From: an uncultured Bellilinea sp.
Lineage (GTDB): Bacteria > Chloroflexota > Anaerolineae > Anaerolineales > Anaerolineaceae
NCBI GenBank assembly: GCA_938040735.1
Contig: CALHYE010000002.1
Location: 62,001-126,000, forward strand
Direction: 5' to 3'
DNA: 64,000 nt
In this document: positions 9,389 through 17,521 of the stretch, in pieces
How the letters are laid out: each line of letters begins with the position of its first letter
Numbering within the stretch: the first letter of the stretch is position 1
The notes under the pieces: generated by a model
Seen by the model: only the letters and a program-made list of their open reading frames with translations
What the model was told of the DNA's origin: nothing
Databases searched by the model: none
Made by a program: the position numbers and the translations under genes

Positions 9389-9418
9389 TTGCCCGAAAAA
9401 ACGGTGTACTGGTATAAT
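9389..9418 (+). promoter_or_regulatory. Promoter candidate for tRNA-Thr (TTGCCC - 18 bp - TATAAT)
   Basis: -10 TATAAT at 9413-9418, -35-like TTGCCC at 9389-9394, tRNA starts at 9428. Confidence 0.5.
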
Positions 9419-9427
9419 TTGCCCCAC

Positions 9428-9500
9428 GCCACCGTAGCTCAGACGGTAGAGCAGGCGTTTCGTAAACGTCTGGTCAAGGGTTCGAGTCCCTTCGGTGGCT
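9428..9500 (+). tRNA. tRNA-Thr (anticodon CGU)
   Basis: Cloverleaf by eye: acceptor GCCACCG/CGGTGGC, D stem GCTC/GAGC, anticodon stem GGCGT/ACGTC with loop TTCGTAA, T stem AAGGG/CCCTT with TTCGAGT loop. Confidence 0.95.
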
Positions 9501-9603
9501 CTTTGATTCTACTCCCTCATGCCATAAATTAGGGGTTTCGAGGCAAAATGACCGATTGTATTAGAAATTTAAGATCGTCATTAGGAGAATTGAAAAATTG
9601 TCC

Positions 9604-9920: not shown

Positions 9921-9950
9921 TTGACAATTGCTGTCCCCTGTCAGTAAAAT
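9921..9950 (+). promoter_or_regulatory. Promoter of the his operon (TTGACA - 18 bp - TAAAAT)
   Basis: TTGACA 9921-9926, TAAAAT 9945-9950; expected +1 near 9957. Confidence 0.7.
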
Positions 9951-9956
9951 AATTGC

Positions 9957-10034
9957 ATGAAACCTGATCCTCAAATCTCTAAATCTCGCCATCATCATCA
10001 TTGGATTATCAACCTCCGCTGTCCGATTGGGTGA
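9957..10034 (+). CDS. hisL: his operon leader peptide MKPDPQISKSRHHHHWIINLRCPIG
   Basis: 25-codon ORF with four consecutive CAT codons (9990-10001), directly upstream of an intrinsic terminator and hisG. Confidence 0.8.
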   Translation: MKPDPQISKSRHHHHWIINLRCPIG

Positions 10035-10065
10035 GTGGTCAGGTCAGGTATTGTAGTTTACAACG

Positions 10066-10094
10066 AACCTCCGCCAATCGGCGGGGGTTTTTTT
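10066..10094 (+). terminator. his attenuator terminator hairpin
   Basis: AACCTCCGCC-AATC-GGCGGGGGTT (about 10 bp stem incl. one G-T) followed by a T7 tract. Confidence 0.85.
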
Positions 10095-10121
10095 ATATTT
10101 TTATGAATACGAGGAAGAAAT

Positions 10122-11171
10122 ATGAAAACTTTTCGGATTTCATTACCATCCAAAGGTCGTTTAGCGGATGAAGCGCTGAACTTTTTGGAATCCTGCGGTT
10201 TGCGTGTTTATAAACCTAATCCACGCCAATATGAGGCAGTCCTGCCGGATTTACCGGATTTGAAAGTCCTCTTTCAAAGACCGGGCGATATTGTTGCCAG
10301 TGTGGCCGACGGGAGCGTTGACTTTGGCATTACCGGTCTGGACATGGTTATGGAAAAGTCCCCAGACCCGACTTCAATTCTGATCCTGCATGAGGCTTTG
10401 GGTTTTGGGGGGTGTACTTTGAGCCTGGCTATCCCGGAGGGCTGGGAGGGGATCGATACCCTGGAAGGATTGGAGACTTATGCCCGCCAATTGGAACGTC
10501 CGTTGCGGGTGGCGACCAAGTTTTCCCGCTTAACCGGTCAGTTTTTGAGCCAACATCAAATCCCTTATACCCTGATTTCTGCGGAAGGGACATTGGAAAC
10601 CGCACCCGCGATTGGATACGCCGACATGATCAGCGATCTGGTGGCATCCGGGCAAACTCTGCGAGACAACCGCTTGAAGGTTGTCGAAGGCGGACAGATT
10701 CTCTCTTCTCAGGCAGCGTTAATCGCAAACTTTTGCCGTCTGAAGGGCAGTCAACCAGCCCAAGCGCTTGCCCGCAACCTGCTGGAATTGATTGAGGCTC
10801 ACCTAAGGGGAAGTACGAATTACTCAGTGTTTGCCAACATGCGCGGGCCTTCGGCGCAGGCGGTTGCTCAACGGATTTTTGACCACAGTACTTTGCATGG
10901 TTTGCAGGGCCCGACAATTTCGCCGGTTTTCACCCCAAGGGGCAATGGGGATTGGTATGCCGTGCATGTGGTGGTCGAAAAACATGAAATTTACCGGGCG
11001 GTTAATGAACTTCGCGCGGTCGGGGGGAGCGGCGTGGTCGTCGTCCCGGTTACCTATATTTTTGATGAGGAGCCCCCGCGCTGCGCAAGAATGACTCAAG
11101 CGCTGCAGATGGATCAGCCGCCAGTACTGACTGCTGTTTTTGGAGAAATGCTTGGAGCAAAAAATGATTGA
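10122..11171 (+). CDS. hisG: ATP phosphoribosyltransferase (long-form HisG)
   Basis: FRISLPSKGRLADEALNFLESCGL, GDIVASVADGSVDFGITGLDMV, C-terminal regulatory-like domain; first gene of his cluster. Confidence 0.92.
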   Translation: MKTFRISLPSKGRLADEALNFLESCGLRVYKPNPRQYEAVLPDLPDLKVLFQRPGDIVASVADGSVDFGITGLDMVMEKSPDPTSILILHEALGFGGCTLSLAIPEGWEGIDTLEGLETYARQLERPLRVATKFSRLTGQFLSQHQIPYTLISAEGTLETAPAIGYADMISDLVASGQTLRDNRLKVVEGGQILSSQAALIANFCRLKGSQPAQALARNLLELIEAHLRGSTNYSVFANMRGPSAQAVAQRIFDHSTLHGLQGPTISPVFTPRGNGDWYAVHVVVEKHEIYRAVNELRAVGGSGVVVVPVTYIFDEEPPRCARMTQALQMDQPPVLTAVFGEMLGAKND

Positions 11172-12288
11172 CGAAGTTCAAAAAAATGTCATTGATCGTT
11201 TTGAGCAAGTTGCGCCCTATACTCCAATTGAGCCGTTTGAAGTCATTGCGCAAAAAGTTGGCCGAAAGCCTGAGGATATTATCAAGTTGGATGCGAATGA
11301 AAATCCCTACGGTCTCTCTCCGTTGGCGCGTGAAGCCATGGCCAATTTGCAATGGGGCAACATTTATCCAGATCCGGAAAGCCGGGCTTTGCGTCAAGCG
11401 ATTGCTACTTTTCTGGGGGTTCCGGTTGAGCAGATTCTGGCGGGAGCCGGCGCAGACGAATTGATTGATTTGGTTTTGCGAGTCATCTTGAAGCCCGGTG
11501 ATGCGGTGCTGGTTGCCCCCCCAACTTTTGGGATGTATGCCTTCGATGCAAAGATCAATGGTGGTCGAGCCCTGGAAGCGCCGCGCCACCCGGATTTCAG
11601 CCTGAATCTGGATGAAATGAGGCGGATTGTGCGCCAGCAAAAACCGCGGGCAGTTCTGTTGGCTTCCCCGAACAACCCGGATGGCAGAATGCTTACAAGG
11701 GAGGAACTGGAAGAAATTTTTTCGTGGGATGTGCTGGTAGTGCTGGATGAAGCCTATATCGAATTCAGCGATGGCGGAAAATTGGGCGAACAATTCACTC
11801 TAATTCGTCGGCCGCTTGAACGCGAGAATGTGATTGTGCTTCGTACTTTCAGCAAATGGGCCGGGCTGGCTGGGCTGCGGGTGGGGTATGGGGTTTTTCC
11901 TCAGTGGATTTTACCGGTCTTGTGGAAGGTGAAGCAGCCTTACAATGTCAATGTGGCCGCCAGCGCGGCGGCAATTGCGTCATTACAGGATTTATCCTGC
12001 CTGACGGAACGGGTGGAAAAAATCCGGTCAGAACGCTCTCGCCTGTTCAATTTGCTCAATCAGGTTGACTGGCTAGAGCCAATTCCTTCGCAGGCAAATT
12101 TTATTTTGTGCCGGGTAAAGGGGCGTTCTGCAAAGGCAGTCAAAGCCGAGTTGATGAAAAAAGGCATCTTTGTGAGGTATTTTGATACACCCTTGCTGCA
12201 AAATTACATCCGTATCAGCGTTGGATTACCCCAGCAGCATGATTTGTTGTTTCAAGTTTTGAGGGAATTGGAGGAATCTTCATTATGA
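11164..12288 (+). CDS. hisC: Histidinol-phosphate aminotransferase
   Basis: IIKLDANENPYGLSPLAREAM, GAGADELIDLVLR, VLDEAYIEF, RTFSKWAGLAGLRVGY; ATG 11164 has SD GGAG. Confidence 0.93.
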   Translation: MIDEVQKNVIDRFEQVAPYTPIEPFEVIAQKVGRKPEDIIKLDANENPYGLSPLAREAMANLQWGNIYPDPESRALRQAIATFLGVPVEQILAGAGADELIDLVLRVILKPGDAVLVAPPTFGMYAFDAKINGGRALEAPRHPDFSLNLDEMRRIVRQQKPRAVLLASPNNPDGRMLTREELEEIFSWDVLVVLDEAYIEFSDGGKLGEQFTLIRRPLERENVIVLRTFSKWAGLAGLRVGYGVFPQWILPVLWKVKQPYNVNVAASAAAIASLQDLSCLTERVEKIRSERSRLFNLLNQVDWLEPIPSQANFILCRVKGRSAKAVKAELMKKGIFVRYFDTPLLQNYIRISVGLPQQHDLLFQVLRELEESSL

Positions 12289-12899
12289 ATGAATTGCAAC
12301 CCAAGGGGCGCACGGCCTCGCTCAGCCGGCAGACTCGCGAAACTTCCATTCAGGTAGAGTTGAATCTGGACGGATCTGGACAGTTCCAGATTCAAACCGG
12401 CATAGGATTTTTCGATCACATGCTGGCTCAACTGGCTTTCCACGGATTGTTTGATTTGCGCATTCAAGCCAATGGAGATTTTGGGGTTGATTTTCACCAT
12501 ACCGTTGAGGATTGCGGGTTGATTTTGGGGGAGGCGTTTGATCGGGCGCTGGGTGAACGCAAGGGTCTGGCGCGCATGGCCGTACAGTACGCGCCCATGG
12601 ATGACAGTCTGGCGCGAGTGGTAGTGGACTTGTCCGGCAGACCCTACAGCGTGATAAAGGCCCGCTGGGCAGCTCATGAAGTTGGCCGCATTCCAATGAG
12701 TTTGTGGGAGCATTTTCTCGAATCGTTTGCGCTGCGTTCCCGTTCAAATTTGCATATCAAGGTTTTATACGGTCGGGATGGGCATCATCAGGTGGAGGCG
12801 GTCTTTAAAGCGCTGGCCAGGTCGCTTTGCGCTGCCAGCCGGTTTGAGCCGCGCCGTTTGGATGAGGTACCTTCCACTAAAGGAGCGCTGAATGTCTGA
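12285..12899 (+). CDS. hisB: Imidazoleglycerol-phosphate dehydratase
   Basis: GIGFFDHMLAQLAFHGLFDL, DFHHTVEDCGLILGEA, GRDGHHQVEAVFKALARSL. Confidence 0.95.
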   Translation: MNELQPKGRTASLSRQTRETSIQVELNLDGSGQFQIQTGIGFFDHMLAQLAFHGLFDLRIQANGDFGVDFHHTVEDCGLILGEAFDRALGERKGLARMAVQYAPMDDSLARVVVDLSGRPYSVIKARWAAHEVGRIPMSLWEHFLESFALRSRSNLHIKVLYGRDGHHQVEAVFKALARSLCAASRFEPRRLDEVPSTKGALNV

Positions 12900-13506
12900 A
12901 AGGATTGTGGTGGTAGATGCCGGGACGGGCAATTTGCGTTCAGTGGTCGGATCTTTGGCCAAAATTGGCGTGCCGGTCAGGCTGACCTCTCAGGCAGAGG
13001 ATGTTTTAAGGGCCGATCGGATTATTTTACCGGGGGTGGGCGCTTTCGGTGAATTTATGCAAGGCCTCAATCAAAATCACTTGGTGGAAGCGTTGAAGGA
13101 CTTTATCCAAAGCGGGCGGCCGCTGTTGGGGATTTGTGTGGGAATGCAAGCTTTAATGGAAATCAGCGAGGAATTGGGACAATACCCGGGCCTGGCTATC
13201 TTCAAGGGGCAGGTTGTGCGTTTTCCATCTCTCCGGGCTTACAAAGTGCCGCATACCGGCTGGAATCAAATTTGGATTCGGCAAGTTTCACCCCTAACAA
13301 AGGGACTTCCCAGCGGTTTTTATGTTTATTTTAACCACAGTTATTACTGCCAACCGCAGAATGGTGAATTTGTGCTTGCCACAACTGATTATGCAGTTGA
13401 TTTTTGCAGCATCATCGGTCAGGAGGCTCTATTTGGGGTTCAATTTCATCCTGAAAAGAGCCAGGCTGCCGGTGAAATTTTGTTGAAAAATTTTGTGAAC
13501 ATCTAG
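12892..13506 (+). CDS. hisH: Imidazole glycerol phosphate synthase glutaminase subunit
   Basis: VVDAGTGNLRSV, RIILPGVGAFGEFM, LLGICVGMQAL, FGVQFHPEKSQAAG. Confidence 0.95.
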   Translation: MSERIVVVDAGTGNLRSVVGSLAKIGVPVRLTSQAEDVLRADRIILPGVGAFGEFMQGLNQNHLVEALKDFIQSGRPLLGICVGMQALMEISEELGQYPGLAIFKGQVVRFPSLRAYKVPHTGWNQIWIRQVSPLTKGLPSGFYVYFNHSYYCQPQNGEFVLATTDYAVDFCSIIGQEALFGVQFHPEKSQAAGEILLKNFVNI

Positions 13507-14274
13507 ATGAGGCAGACGGAGATGAATGATTTTACGATTTACCCGGCGATTGACCTACGGGATGGAAAAGTAGTTCGATTGGAGTTGGGAGACCCCTCTC
13601 GTCAGATAATATTCAGTCATGATCCCGCCGAAGCAGCCTATCGCTTCTTCAGCGCTGGCGCAAAATGGCTGCACGTTGTTAATTTAGACGGGGCTTTTGG
13701 CGATGAACGCCGGGCGAGGAGAAATGAAACCGCCCTTGCTCAGATCTTGGAAATCACCCCGGAATTTGATGGAAAAATTCAGGTAGGGGGAGGCCTGCGC
13801 TCGCTGAAGTCCATTGAGCGCCTGTTAGCAATGGGAGTCAAGCGGGTTATTCTTGGCACACTGGCTGTGGAACAACCGCAGGCGGTGATTGAGAGTATTC
13901 GACGATGGGGGGCAGATCGCATTGCGGTGAGTGCCGATCTACGCGCCGGGAAAATCCAAACTCACGGATGGCGGCAAAGTGCAGAAATGCAGCCAGAAAA
14001 GTGGCTTCAACAAATGGCTGATGAAGGTTTGCGTTGGGTGGTTGTGACCGATGTTGAGCGAGATGGCATGTTGAACGGTGCTAATCCTGAGATAGCCGTT
14101 TGGCTTCAACGGGACTCAAGACTGCGAGCGATACTGGCGGGTGGAGTCAGCCGTATGGCGGATATTCAGGCTGCCAGACGTAGCGGACTGGCAGGGGTGA
14201 TTATCGGCCGCGCTCTGTACAGCGGTGAATTGAACTTAACCGAAGTGTTCAAGGAGATTGCGAATGCTGGCTAA
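13507..14274 (+). CDS. hisA: HisA isomerase (5'-ProFAR isomerase); start may be 13522
   Basis: [54 protein letters not shown]. Confidence 0.94.
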
Positions 14275-15052
14275 ACGAATCATTCCTTGTTTAGATATCA
14301 AAGATGGACGAGTGGTGAAGGGGATTCACTTTATTTCCCTGCGGGATGCCGGCGATCCACTCCAGCAGGCAGCCCTGTATGATGCGATGGGCGCGGATGA
14401 ACTGGTCTTTTTAGATATCCAGGCAACGCCGGAGGGGCGTAAGACGGTGGTGGAATTGGTTTCTCGCGTGGCAGAGGAAATTCGGATGCCTCTTACGGTG
14501 GGGGGTGGGGTGCGCAATGTGGAGGATATGCGTCGTTTGTTACTGGCGGGTGCGGATAAGATTAGCATCAATTCGGCTGCGGTGCGCAATCCGCAAATCC
14601 TGAGTGAAGGCGCAGACCGGTTTGGCAGTCAGTGTGTTGTGCTGGCTGTTGATGTAAGGAGAATCAAAGATGGAACCAATTCGCCTCGCTGGGAGGTTGT
14701 CGTTGACGGCGGCCGGACTCCGACGGGATTAGATGCGCTCGAGTGGGCGCAGCAAGCCGTCCGTTTGGGCGCTGGCGAAATCCTCCTGACCAGCATGGAT
14801 CGGGATGGCACAAGGGCCGGTTATGACATCGAATTGACGCGCGCTTTTAGCCAAAACTTGCCGGTTCCGATCATTGCATCAGGCGGGGCAGGCCAAATGG
14901 ATCATTTTGCTGAAGTGTTTGATGCGGGTGGTGCGGATGCAGCGTTGGCAGCCACCCTGTTTCATGATGGGATCATCCGTATCCCTGAACTTAAGGACTA
15001 TTTGTCTCAACAAGGGATACCTGTCCGCCAGGTGGAGAAAGGAACAAGATGA
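14264..15052 (+). CDS. hisF: Imidazole glycerol phosphate synthase cyclase subunit
   Basis: [67 protein letters not shown]. Confidence 0.96.
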
Positions 15053-15387
15053 TGAACGGAGAAAATGGTCTAGAGTTTAATGAACAAGGCTTAATTCCTG
15101 CGATTATTCAGGATGCTTTTAGTCAACAGGTGTTAATGCTGGGATGGATGAACCGCGAGGCATTTGAATTGACCTGCAGCACAGGACTGGTGCATTTCTG
15201 GTCGCGCAGCCGGCAGCGTTTGTGGAAGAAAGGCGAAACCTCGGGGAATCTGATGCAAGTGGTGGAGTTGATGTTGGATTGCGACCGGGACGCGCTTTTG
15301 GTGAGAGTGTTGCGCAAGGGTCCGGCATGCCATACGGGATTGGTAACTTGTTTTCATAACCCAATCGAAAAGGAGAGCGGGGAATAA
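15049..15387 (+). CDS. hisI: Phosphoribosyl-AMP cyclohydrolase
   Basis: [50 protein letters not shown]. Confidence 0.95.
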
Positions 15388-15668
15388 TGCAATTTCTTAT
15401 TGAACTGAGCCATGTCATTGAAGAACGGCAAAAAAGCCCTCGAGAGGGGTCCTATACCTGCCAGCTATTTGCCAGCGGGGAAGATGAAATCCTCAAAAAA
15501 GTGGGGGAAGAAGCCATTGAAGTTATTCTGGCGGCAAAGGGCCAGGGCCATCAGCGGATTGTGGAAGAGGTCAGCGATCTTTTGTACCATTTACTAGTGC
15601 TGCTTTCATTCAAGCAAGTTGGATTGGATGAAATTGAAACAGAATTGCGCCGGCGTCATGGAGGTTGA
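15387..15668 (+). CDS. hisE: Phosphoribosyl-ATP pyrophosphatase
   Basis: SYTCQLFASGEDEILKKVGEEAIEVILAAKGQGHQRIVEEVSDLLYHLLVLL. Confidence 0.95.
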   Translation: MQFLIELSHVIEERQKSPREGSYTCQLFASGEDEILKKVGEEAIEVILAAKGQGHQRIVEEVSDLLYHLLVLLSFKQVGLDEIETELRRRHGG

Positions 15669-15938: not shown

Positions 15939-16139
15939 GCCTCGACATTGCGCCGCAGAATAAGATCATCACAGGAATTGCGGTAAGGCGGTCGTTATGG
16001 CGTGTTTTTTGTGGACAAACCCCTTGTTGGGCTTGTCCGGGACAGGCTCATGGTGAATAACCATGGCAATTTAACCAAAGACCGGGCGTCTCCGGCGAGG
16101 TTAATAATAAAATATCTATTTTCACTTCGAAGGAGAAAA

Positions 16140-16709
16140 ATGGAGATTCAAACATTTTCATATTGCTCTCCAAAATTGGAGTTGCGTCCGTGTCCGGAAA
16201 AAGGGGGATTTGGTTTATTTGCAATCGAACCGATCAGTGCGGGTGAGTTGTTGGCGATGTGGGGCGGGCAGGTAGTAACCAGCGAACAATTACAGTATCT
16301 GCCGGTTGATCGTCAGACGCATGGCATTCAAATTCACGAAGATTTGTATCTGGTGCCGGTTACCCATGGCGAACCTGCCGATTATTTCAACCATTCTTGC
16401 AATCCCAATTGCGGTTTGGATTCCCCAATCTCTCTGGTAGCCATGCGGGATATTGAAGTTGGAGAGGAAGCCTGCTTTGATTATGCCATGAGCGACTCCT
16501 CGGATTACGACGAATTTGAGTGCCGCTGCGGGGCTGCCAACTGCCGCAAAACGATTACGGGCCGGGATTGGATGATATCCGAATTGCAGGAAAGATATTT
16601 TGGATTTTTCTCTCCGTATCTTCAGCGGCGAATCGAAAAAATGCGCGAAGAAATTCGGCTCAAAGGGAACGGCAGGAAAGCCCCCAAAAATGTGGACGAA
16701 CGAAAATAG
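16140..16709 (+). CDS. SET-domain protein-lysine methyltransferase-like protein
   Basis: GFGLFAIEPISAGELLAMWGG, DYFNHSCNPNCGLD, DIEVGEEACFDYAMSD, CRCGAANCRKTITGRDW; ATG 16140 preceded by GAAGGAG. Confidence 0.9.
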   Translation: MEIQTFSYCSPKLELRPCPEKGGFGLFAIEPISAGELLAMWGGQVVTSEQLQYLPVDRQTHGIQIHEDLYLVPVTHGEPADYFNHSCNPNCGLDSPISLVAMRDIEVGEEACFDYAMSDSSDYDEFECRCGAANCRKTITGRDWMISELQERYFGFFSPYLQRRIEKMREEIRLKGNGRKAPKNVDERK

Positions 16710-16726: not shown

Positions 16727-17521
16727 TTGGGTGTTATTTCCCTGTTGACTGATTTTGGTGACCAGGATGCGTTTGTCGGCATCATGAAAGGGGTGATCTG
16801 GAAGATTGCCCCTCAGGTTCAAATTGCCGATCTCACTCACTGGATCGAACCACAAAATGTTTTACGAGGCGCTCTAATTCTGGGGCAGGCTTACCGGTAT
16901 TTTCCTGAGGGAAGCGTGCATGTTGTGGTCGTGGATCCGGGGGTTGGCACTCAACGAAGAGCAGTGGCGGCTAAAATCGGTCATTTTTATTTTGTCGCAC
17001 CGGATAACGGATTGCTGACCTTGCCGATTGAATGGGCAGAGAAAGCCGGGGATGTGATACATGCGGTTGAGTTGAACAATCCGCGTTTCTGGCTTCCAGA
17101 GGTGAGTCGCACCTTTCATGGCAGGGATATCTTTGCGCCGTGTGCGGCTCATTTAGCAAATGGCACACCGCTGGATGAGCTGGGGAGCAGACTGGAAAGC
17201 CGCGAGCTTTTGCGCATAGACATTCCAAAACCTCGCCGCACGCCAACCGGCTGGCAGGCGCAGGTATTGATGGCTGATGTGTTTGGGAACTTAATCAGCA
17301 ACCTTACCACGGAAGATGTGGGCGAGGAGAGAATTCGCAAAGTGGTGATCTCCGGCGCCTCCATTGAGCGGTTTGCGCGCACCTTCGGGGAAGCGCCAGC
17401 CGGGTCTCTTATCACGATGTTCGACAGTTCCGGTTATTTGAGCGTTTGTGTGGTCAATGGCAATGCGCAGAAACAATTAAACGTTCGGGCTGGTGACCCG
17501 ATGGAAGTGATCACTGAGTAA
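16727..17521 (+). CDS. SAM hydroxide adenosyltransferase / DUF62 family (SAM hydrolase)
   Basis: ISLLTDFGDQDAFVGIMKG, VHVVVVDPGVGTQRRAVA, VAPDNGLLT, RTFHGRDIFAPCAAHLANG; TTG start. Confidence 0.9.
   Translation: MGVISLLTDFGDQDAFVGIMKGVIWKIAPQVQIADLTHWIEPQNVLRGALILGQAYRYFPEGSVHVVVVDPGVGTQRRAVAAKIGHFYFVAPDNGLLTLPIEWAEKAGDVIHAVELNNPRFWLPEVSRTFHGRDIFAPCAAHLANGTPLDELGSRLESRELLRIDIPKPRRTPTGWQAQVLMADVFGNLISNLTTEDVGEERIRKVVISGASIERFARTFGEAPAGSLITMFDSSGYLSVCVVNGNAQKQLNVRAGDPMEVITE

Follow-up and report, generated by a model that had tools for sequence, protein, structure and literature searches.

A putative his operon attenuator with a predicted leaderless leader peptide in Bellilinea and related Anaerolineae (Chloroflexota)

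Introduction

Most descriptions of leader-peptide attenuation in amino acid biosynthesis come from Proteobacteria and Actinobacteria, with a few lineages of Firmicutes in addition. The leader peptide of the enterobacterial his operon contains seven consecutive His codons. His leaders have also been described in Firmicutes, where PMC9413887 lists 17 species in three small groups, belonging to the Bacillus cereus group, the Peptostreptococcaceae and the Erysipelotrichales. As described there, these leaders contain 3–5 His codons in a row, followed by a terminator and an antiterminator before the his genes, and do not match the Rfam family RF00514 (His_leader). Leader peptides that are translated from a leaderless start are known from trpL of Sinorhizobium meliloti (PMC7298713), and from trpL1, leuL1, leuL2 and ilvL of Streptomyces lividans (PMC8079986).

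For Chloroflexota, no description of attenuation or leader peptides was found in the open-access literature, in agreement with the initial annotation of this DNA, which was aware of none for the lineage; an earlier mention may exist. Here we describe a candidate attenuator upstream of hisG in a stretch of 64,000 nucleotides from an uncultured Bellilinea sp. (hereafter the window), and its occurrence in related genomes.

Results

The window contains eight his genes in one direction on the forward strand, in the order hisG-C-B-H-A-F-I-E (NCBIfam). The first gene of the operon, hisG (10122-11171, +), encodes an ATP phosphoribosyltransferase of the long form with a C-terminal domain (TIGR00070 and TIGR03455, both above cut-off), and is preceded by a Shine-Dalgarno-like GAGGAAG (10111-10117, +). 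The remaining genes, hisC, hisB, hisH, hisA, hisF, hisI and hisE, occupy positions 11140-15668 (+). hisD was not found in this cluster (10122-15668), nor in the 77%-complete genome to which the window belongs (G000). Among named relatives, Bellilinea caldifistulae has the nearest hisG (90% identity), those of other Bellilinea or Anaerolineaceae assemblies come next, and the window genome is Bellilinea-like (Anaerolineaceae, Chloroflexota), of the same genus as these nearest relatives. Two ORFs located 3' of hisE resemble, by eye, a SET-domain protein (16002-16709) and the SAM hydroxide adenosyltransferase family (16727-17521). On the other side of the operon, a tRNA-Thr (CGT) gene (9428-9501) lies between a divergent upstream gene and the leader described below, and is preceded by a promoter-like site, TTGCCC-18-TATAAT (9389-9418).

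Upstream of hisG, a promoter, a leader ORF, a His codon run and a terminator follow one another in that order, all on the forward strand. The sigma70-type promoter (9921-9950) consists of a -35 box TTGACA (9921-9926), an 18-nt spacer and a -10 box TAAAAT (9945-9950), with 11 of 12 consensus matches. The leader ORF (9957-10034) starts with an ATG 6 nt past the -10 box, encodes the peptide MKPDPQISKSRHHHHWIINLRCPIG, and contains four consecutive CAT (His) codons at 9990-10001. About 30 nt past the leader stop codon begins an intrinsic terminator (10065-10098), with an 11-bp stem (10065-10090), a 4-nt loop and a T-rich tail (ΔG = -19.7 kcal/mol). The leader thus carries consecutive codons for histidine, the end product of the operon, and a terminator separates the leader from the first structural gene. 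The initial annotation had recognized the ORF with its CAT codons, the strong terminator and hisG, and had assigned the DNA to a likely Chloroflexota genome, all of which were borne out.

To examine conservation, hisG loci from Anaerolineae were scanned for short His-rich ORFs (three or more His in 8 residues) within 400 nt upstream of hisG. One of the 79 loci was left out for having just 14 nt of upstream sequence, and 73 of the 78 testable regions contained such an ORF. The same test was positive for 74 of 2000 random 400-bp segments of the window (3.7%), and for 8 of 77 reverse-complemented hisG upstream regions. Among the five negatives, two have a His-rich ORF further upstream (L057, L071) and one (L061) has a leader with just two His, together with a promoter and a terminator; in the remaining two (L036, L053) no such leader was found upstream of hisG. 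The His run comprises at least 3 codons in 67 of 74 leaders, and the peptide outside the run varies freely among relatives. A strong terminator (median -18.6 kcal/mol) stands 23–54 nt past the leader stop in 74 of the 75 leaders that were scanned. When four genomes of the Bellilinea group are compared, promoter, His codons, terminator and the antiterminator arm described below as region 2 are nearly invariant, and the surrounding DNA is not. The element was found in the cultured genera Bellilinea, Levilinea, Ornatilinea, Longilinea and Thermanaerothrix. Most relatives thus keep both the run and the terminator, the absence of which the initial annotation had named as evidence against its reading.

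Because the promoter ends 6 nt before the leader ATG, the leader is predicted to be leaderless, with its RNA probably starting at, or a few nt from, the ATG, judging from the promoter position. The initial annotation had called for transcription to start upstream of 9957, and the strong promoter match found directly upstream is shared by all four genomes of the Bellilinea group; the promoter itself, the leaderless start and the antiterminator go beyond what that annotation contained. Alternatively, the attenuator could have an ordinary 5' UTR, with the true promoter further upstream and the TTGACA/TAAAAT match being fortuitous. The start sites proposed here do depend on promoter position, and the site before tRNA-Thr provides a second promoter-like sequence. 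However, near-consensus boxes are found at this position in 66 of 74 Anaerolineae leaders, and an in-frame ATG is found 3–12 nt 3' of the -10 box in 61 of these 66, as compared with 1 of 132 for the other two frames. The distance from the -10 box to the ATG peaks at 7 and 10 nt in this set. The short gap in the window is kept across relatives, and no Shine-Dalgarno-like sequence was found 5' of the leader ATG in any of these leaders. An ordinary 5' UTR is therefore improbable, and a leaderless leader is the preferred reading.

Three segments of the window leader can enter alternative pairings. Region 1 (10011-10019, +; AACCTCCGC) is an exact direct repeat of 10066-10074, and can pair with 10033-10050 into a protector hairpin (1:2; duplex energy -11.1 kcal/mol). 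Region 2, the 5' arm of the antiterminator (10023-10035, +), overlaps the leader stop codon (10032-10034), and region 3, its 3' arm (10069-10081, +), is shared with the 5' arm and loop of the terminator. Regions 2 and 3 form a 13-nt inverted repeat with 85% complementarity (2:3 duplex energy -19.0 kcal/mol). The full window leader folds with z = -3.4 relative to dinucleotide shuffles, but the energy of its 2:3 pairing taken alone was not better than that of shuffles (p = 0.215), so the case for the antiterminator rests on the clade.

Across the clade, 2:3 complementarity exceeded that of dinucleotide shuffles (median z -2.3, p < 0.05 in 46 of 74 leaders), and in 62 of 74 leaders the antiterminator arm is found at the leader stop codon, either overlapping it or no more than 15 nt away. 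The two arms differ by lineage in a correlated manner: GATTGG/CCAATC in Bellilinea, TGACCGG/CCGGTC(A) in many Anaerolineaceae, GACTG/CAGTC in L023, GATTCGGG/CCCGAATC in L047, and GATCGAAGG/CCTTCGATC in L060. A pair-by-pair covariation count was dropped because the terminator loop is offset by one base from lineage to lineage in the MAFFT alignment, and cognate arm pairs were instead compared with permuted ones. Cognate pairs were more stable (mean -14.9 versus -12.0 kcal/mol; 20,000 permutations), with a z of -11 that is inflated by clade structure, there being fewer independent events than sequences, and is not to be read as a literal probability. An antiterminator that competes with the terminator, and that is so placed that a ribosome at the stop codon would block it, is therefore present in these leaders.

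The switch was modelled by folding the RNA that lies 3' of a ribosome, either stalled or terminating, at equilibrium on partial transcripts rather than kinetically. The mean probability that region 3 pairs with upstream RNA was 0.68 for a stalled ribosome, 0.42 after shuffling of the spacer, and 0.21 for a ribosome that had reached the stop codon (stalled versus shuffled, Wilcoxon p = 6e-14). For the window, the antiterminator probability was 0.76–0.94 with the leading edge of the ribosome at 10014-10023, and at most 0.16 from 10026 onwards. With the edge at 10005-10011, corresponding to a stall on early His codons, it was about 0.29, because the 1:2 hairpin competes and wins in the model. Counted from the first base of the codon in the A site, a ribosome covers about 12–13 nt of RNA ahead of it. 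Assuming this cover, a stall on the last His codon would place the edge at the border of the range in which the antiterminator is favoured, and a ribosome that has reached the stop codon would lie outside it.

Taken together, the element in the window very likely controls the his operon by ribosome-mediated transcription attenuation, which would switch on hisG-hisE when charged His-tRNA is short. The initial annotation had proposed this architecture, which the conservation in the clade and the conserved antiterminator support. In the proposed mechanism, transcription would start at the leader ATG (9957) or a few nt from it, and a ribosome would load on the 5' end of the RNA without a Shine-Dalgarno sequence. 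When His-tRNA is scarce, the ribosome would stall on the late His codons, its leading edge covering region 1 (from about 10011), and leave region 2 free to pair with region 3 before region 4 is made. The terminator could then not form, and hisG-hisE would be transcribed. When His-tRNA is plentiful, the ribosome would reach the stop codon and sit on region 2, so that region 3 would pair with region 4 (10065-10090) and transcription would end before hisG. If the leader is not translated, the 1:2 hairpin would also leave the terminator free to form.

The window and 20 relatives were searched with Rfam models. RF00514 scored 18.6 bits in the window, against a gathering threshold of 49, and gave no gathering match in the 20 relatives. 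Neither a T-box (RF00230) nor a riboswitch or other Rfam leader scored above gathering at this position, whether in the window or in the relatives, and none of the Rfam leader families, tried at gathering and permissive thresholds, fits the element. It is possible in principle that another RNA mechanism, such as a T-box, a riboswitch or a protein-bound leader, controls the terminator and that the His run is incidental. The window leader folds well, and PMC9413887 describes T-boxes on his operons of some Firmicutes and Actinobacteria. Set against this, the Rfam searches returned no such leader, and an incidental His run would not be expected to persist as it does across the Anaerolineae, making this explanation very improbable next to ribosome-mediated attenuation.

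In most relatives, hisD follows hisG. We inspected five loci with a displaced hisD, of which three (G017, G016 and G015; loci L308, L309 and L311) have a His-run leader of their own directly upstream, with a TTGACA promoter and a terminator; one such leader is MTANARNHHHHTNFNPLTSEDWSFV. In G016 the displaced hisD leads into hisG, and in G017 there are separate attenuators, one on hisG and another on hisD. The presence of the element on displaced hisD indicates that it is tied to histidine genes, and not merely to the hisG locus. No His run was found upstream of displaced hisD in L313 and L315. In L313, which belongs to the B. caldifistulae genome (G002), a terminator hairpin and CTGACCGGAGG are located within about 60 nt before hisD, and this region is possibly a decayed attenuator.

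That the short ORF instead encodes an independent His-rich small protein, unrelated to hisG control, is likewise very improbable: it has its own promoter and terminator, and His runs bind metals, but its conservation is limited to the His run, the antiterminator arm overlaps or adjoins its stop codon in most genomes, which an independent gene would not need, and the element recurs before displaced hisD.

Leader ORFs were also found upstream of another amino acid operon. An Ile/Leu/Val-rich leader ORF is present in 14 of 16 ilvD upstream regions (L284-L299; ilvD identified by position and frame length), in most cases followed by a strong terminator, and also in two Anaerolineales regions upstream of ilvB where ilvD is absent (L233, L242). 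An example is MISFFSLFILIAILVLVIVLENPLPVWAVRVSAGESRSR, from the genome matching B. caldifistulae. These leaders are likely branched-chain amino acid attenuators of the ilv-leu operon. They do not look leaderless, because most are without a promoter close to the ATG. No convincing Trp-rich leader was found before trpE in 11 relatives.

To investigate the occurrence of the element outside this group, 750 nt upstream of hisG were examined in 60 other Chloroflexota genomes. A convincing His run was found in just two, both from families elsewhere in the phylum: NHHHHEQG with a perfect long terminator hairpin (L161/L300, G173), and HRHHHHHIRG without a clear terminator (L165/L301, G165). Nine negative genomes belong to the same class but to other families. 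The element thus appears to be concentrated in Anaerolineales and near relatives, a distribution that does not prove its absence in other Chloroflexota, because hisG need not be the first operon gene there. A protein search found hisG in 52 of 101 relatives, and in 31 of the 62 of good quality. Likewise, trpE and ilvB are absent from many of these genomes, and amino acid auxotrophy is likely to be widespread in Anaerolineaceae.

Discussion

The mechanism proposed here would be classic his attenuation, which seems to be undescribed for Chloroflexota in the open literature. As in the enterobacterial his attenuator, a His-codon run in a leader peptide and alternative antiterminator and terminator structures are located directly before the his operon. 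The present element differs in having 3–4 consecutive His codons, a predicted leaderless start and a simpler set of three alternative pairings (1:2, 2:3 and 3:4). The likeness to enterobacteria noted in the initial annotation therefore holds for the mode of working, but does not extend to membership in the Rfam His_leader family: at 18.6 bits, the element is not a sequence-level member.

The element also resembles the Firmicutes His leaders (PMC9413887), with which it shares the short His run, the terminator and antiterminator before the his genes, and the lack of an RF00514 match. It differs in belonging to another phylum, and in being nearly universal among the hisG-bearing Anaerolineae sampled; a leaderless start is not described for the Firmicutes leaders in the accessible text of PMC9413887. 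The leaders of S. meliloti trpL and S. lividans likewise place the leader ORF at the 5' end of the transcript, where it feeds an attenuator, but they concern other amino acids and other phyla, and their starts were mapped experimentally, whereas here the starts follow from promoter position.

A nearly clade-wide his attenuator in Chloroflexota would widen the known range of amino acid attenuation. Its occurrence in this phylum, in a sequence unrelated to the Rfam model, suggests that such attenuators have arisen repeatedly. The predicted leaderless start would make these leaders, more than 60 in number, a natural collection for studying how a ribosome loading at the 5' end keeps pace with RNA polymerase. 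On balance, we consider it more likely than not that Anaerolineae use leader-peptide attenuation generally, for his, displaced hisD and ilv-leu, with the his leader being leaderless throughout the clade and ribosome loading thereby bound to the 5' end of the emerging transcript. If so, this would be the first amino acid attenuation system described for the phylum.
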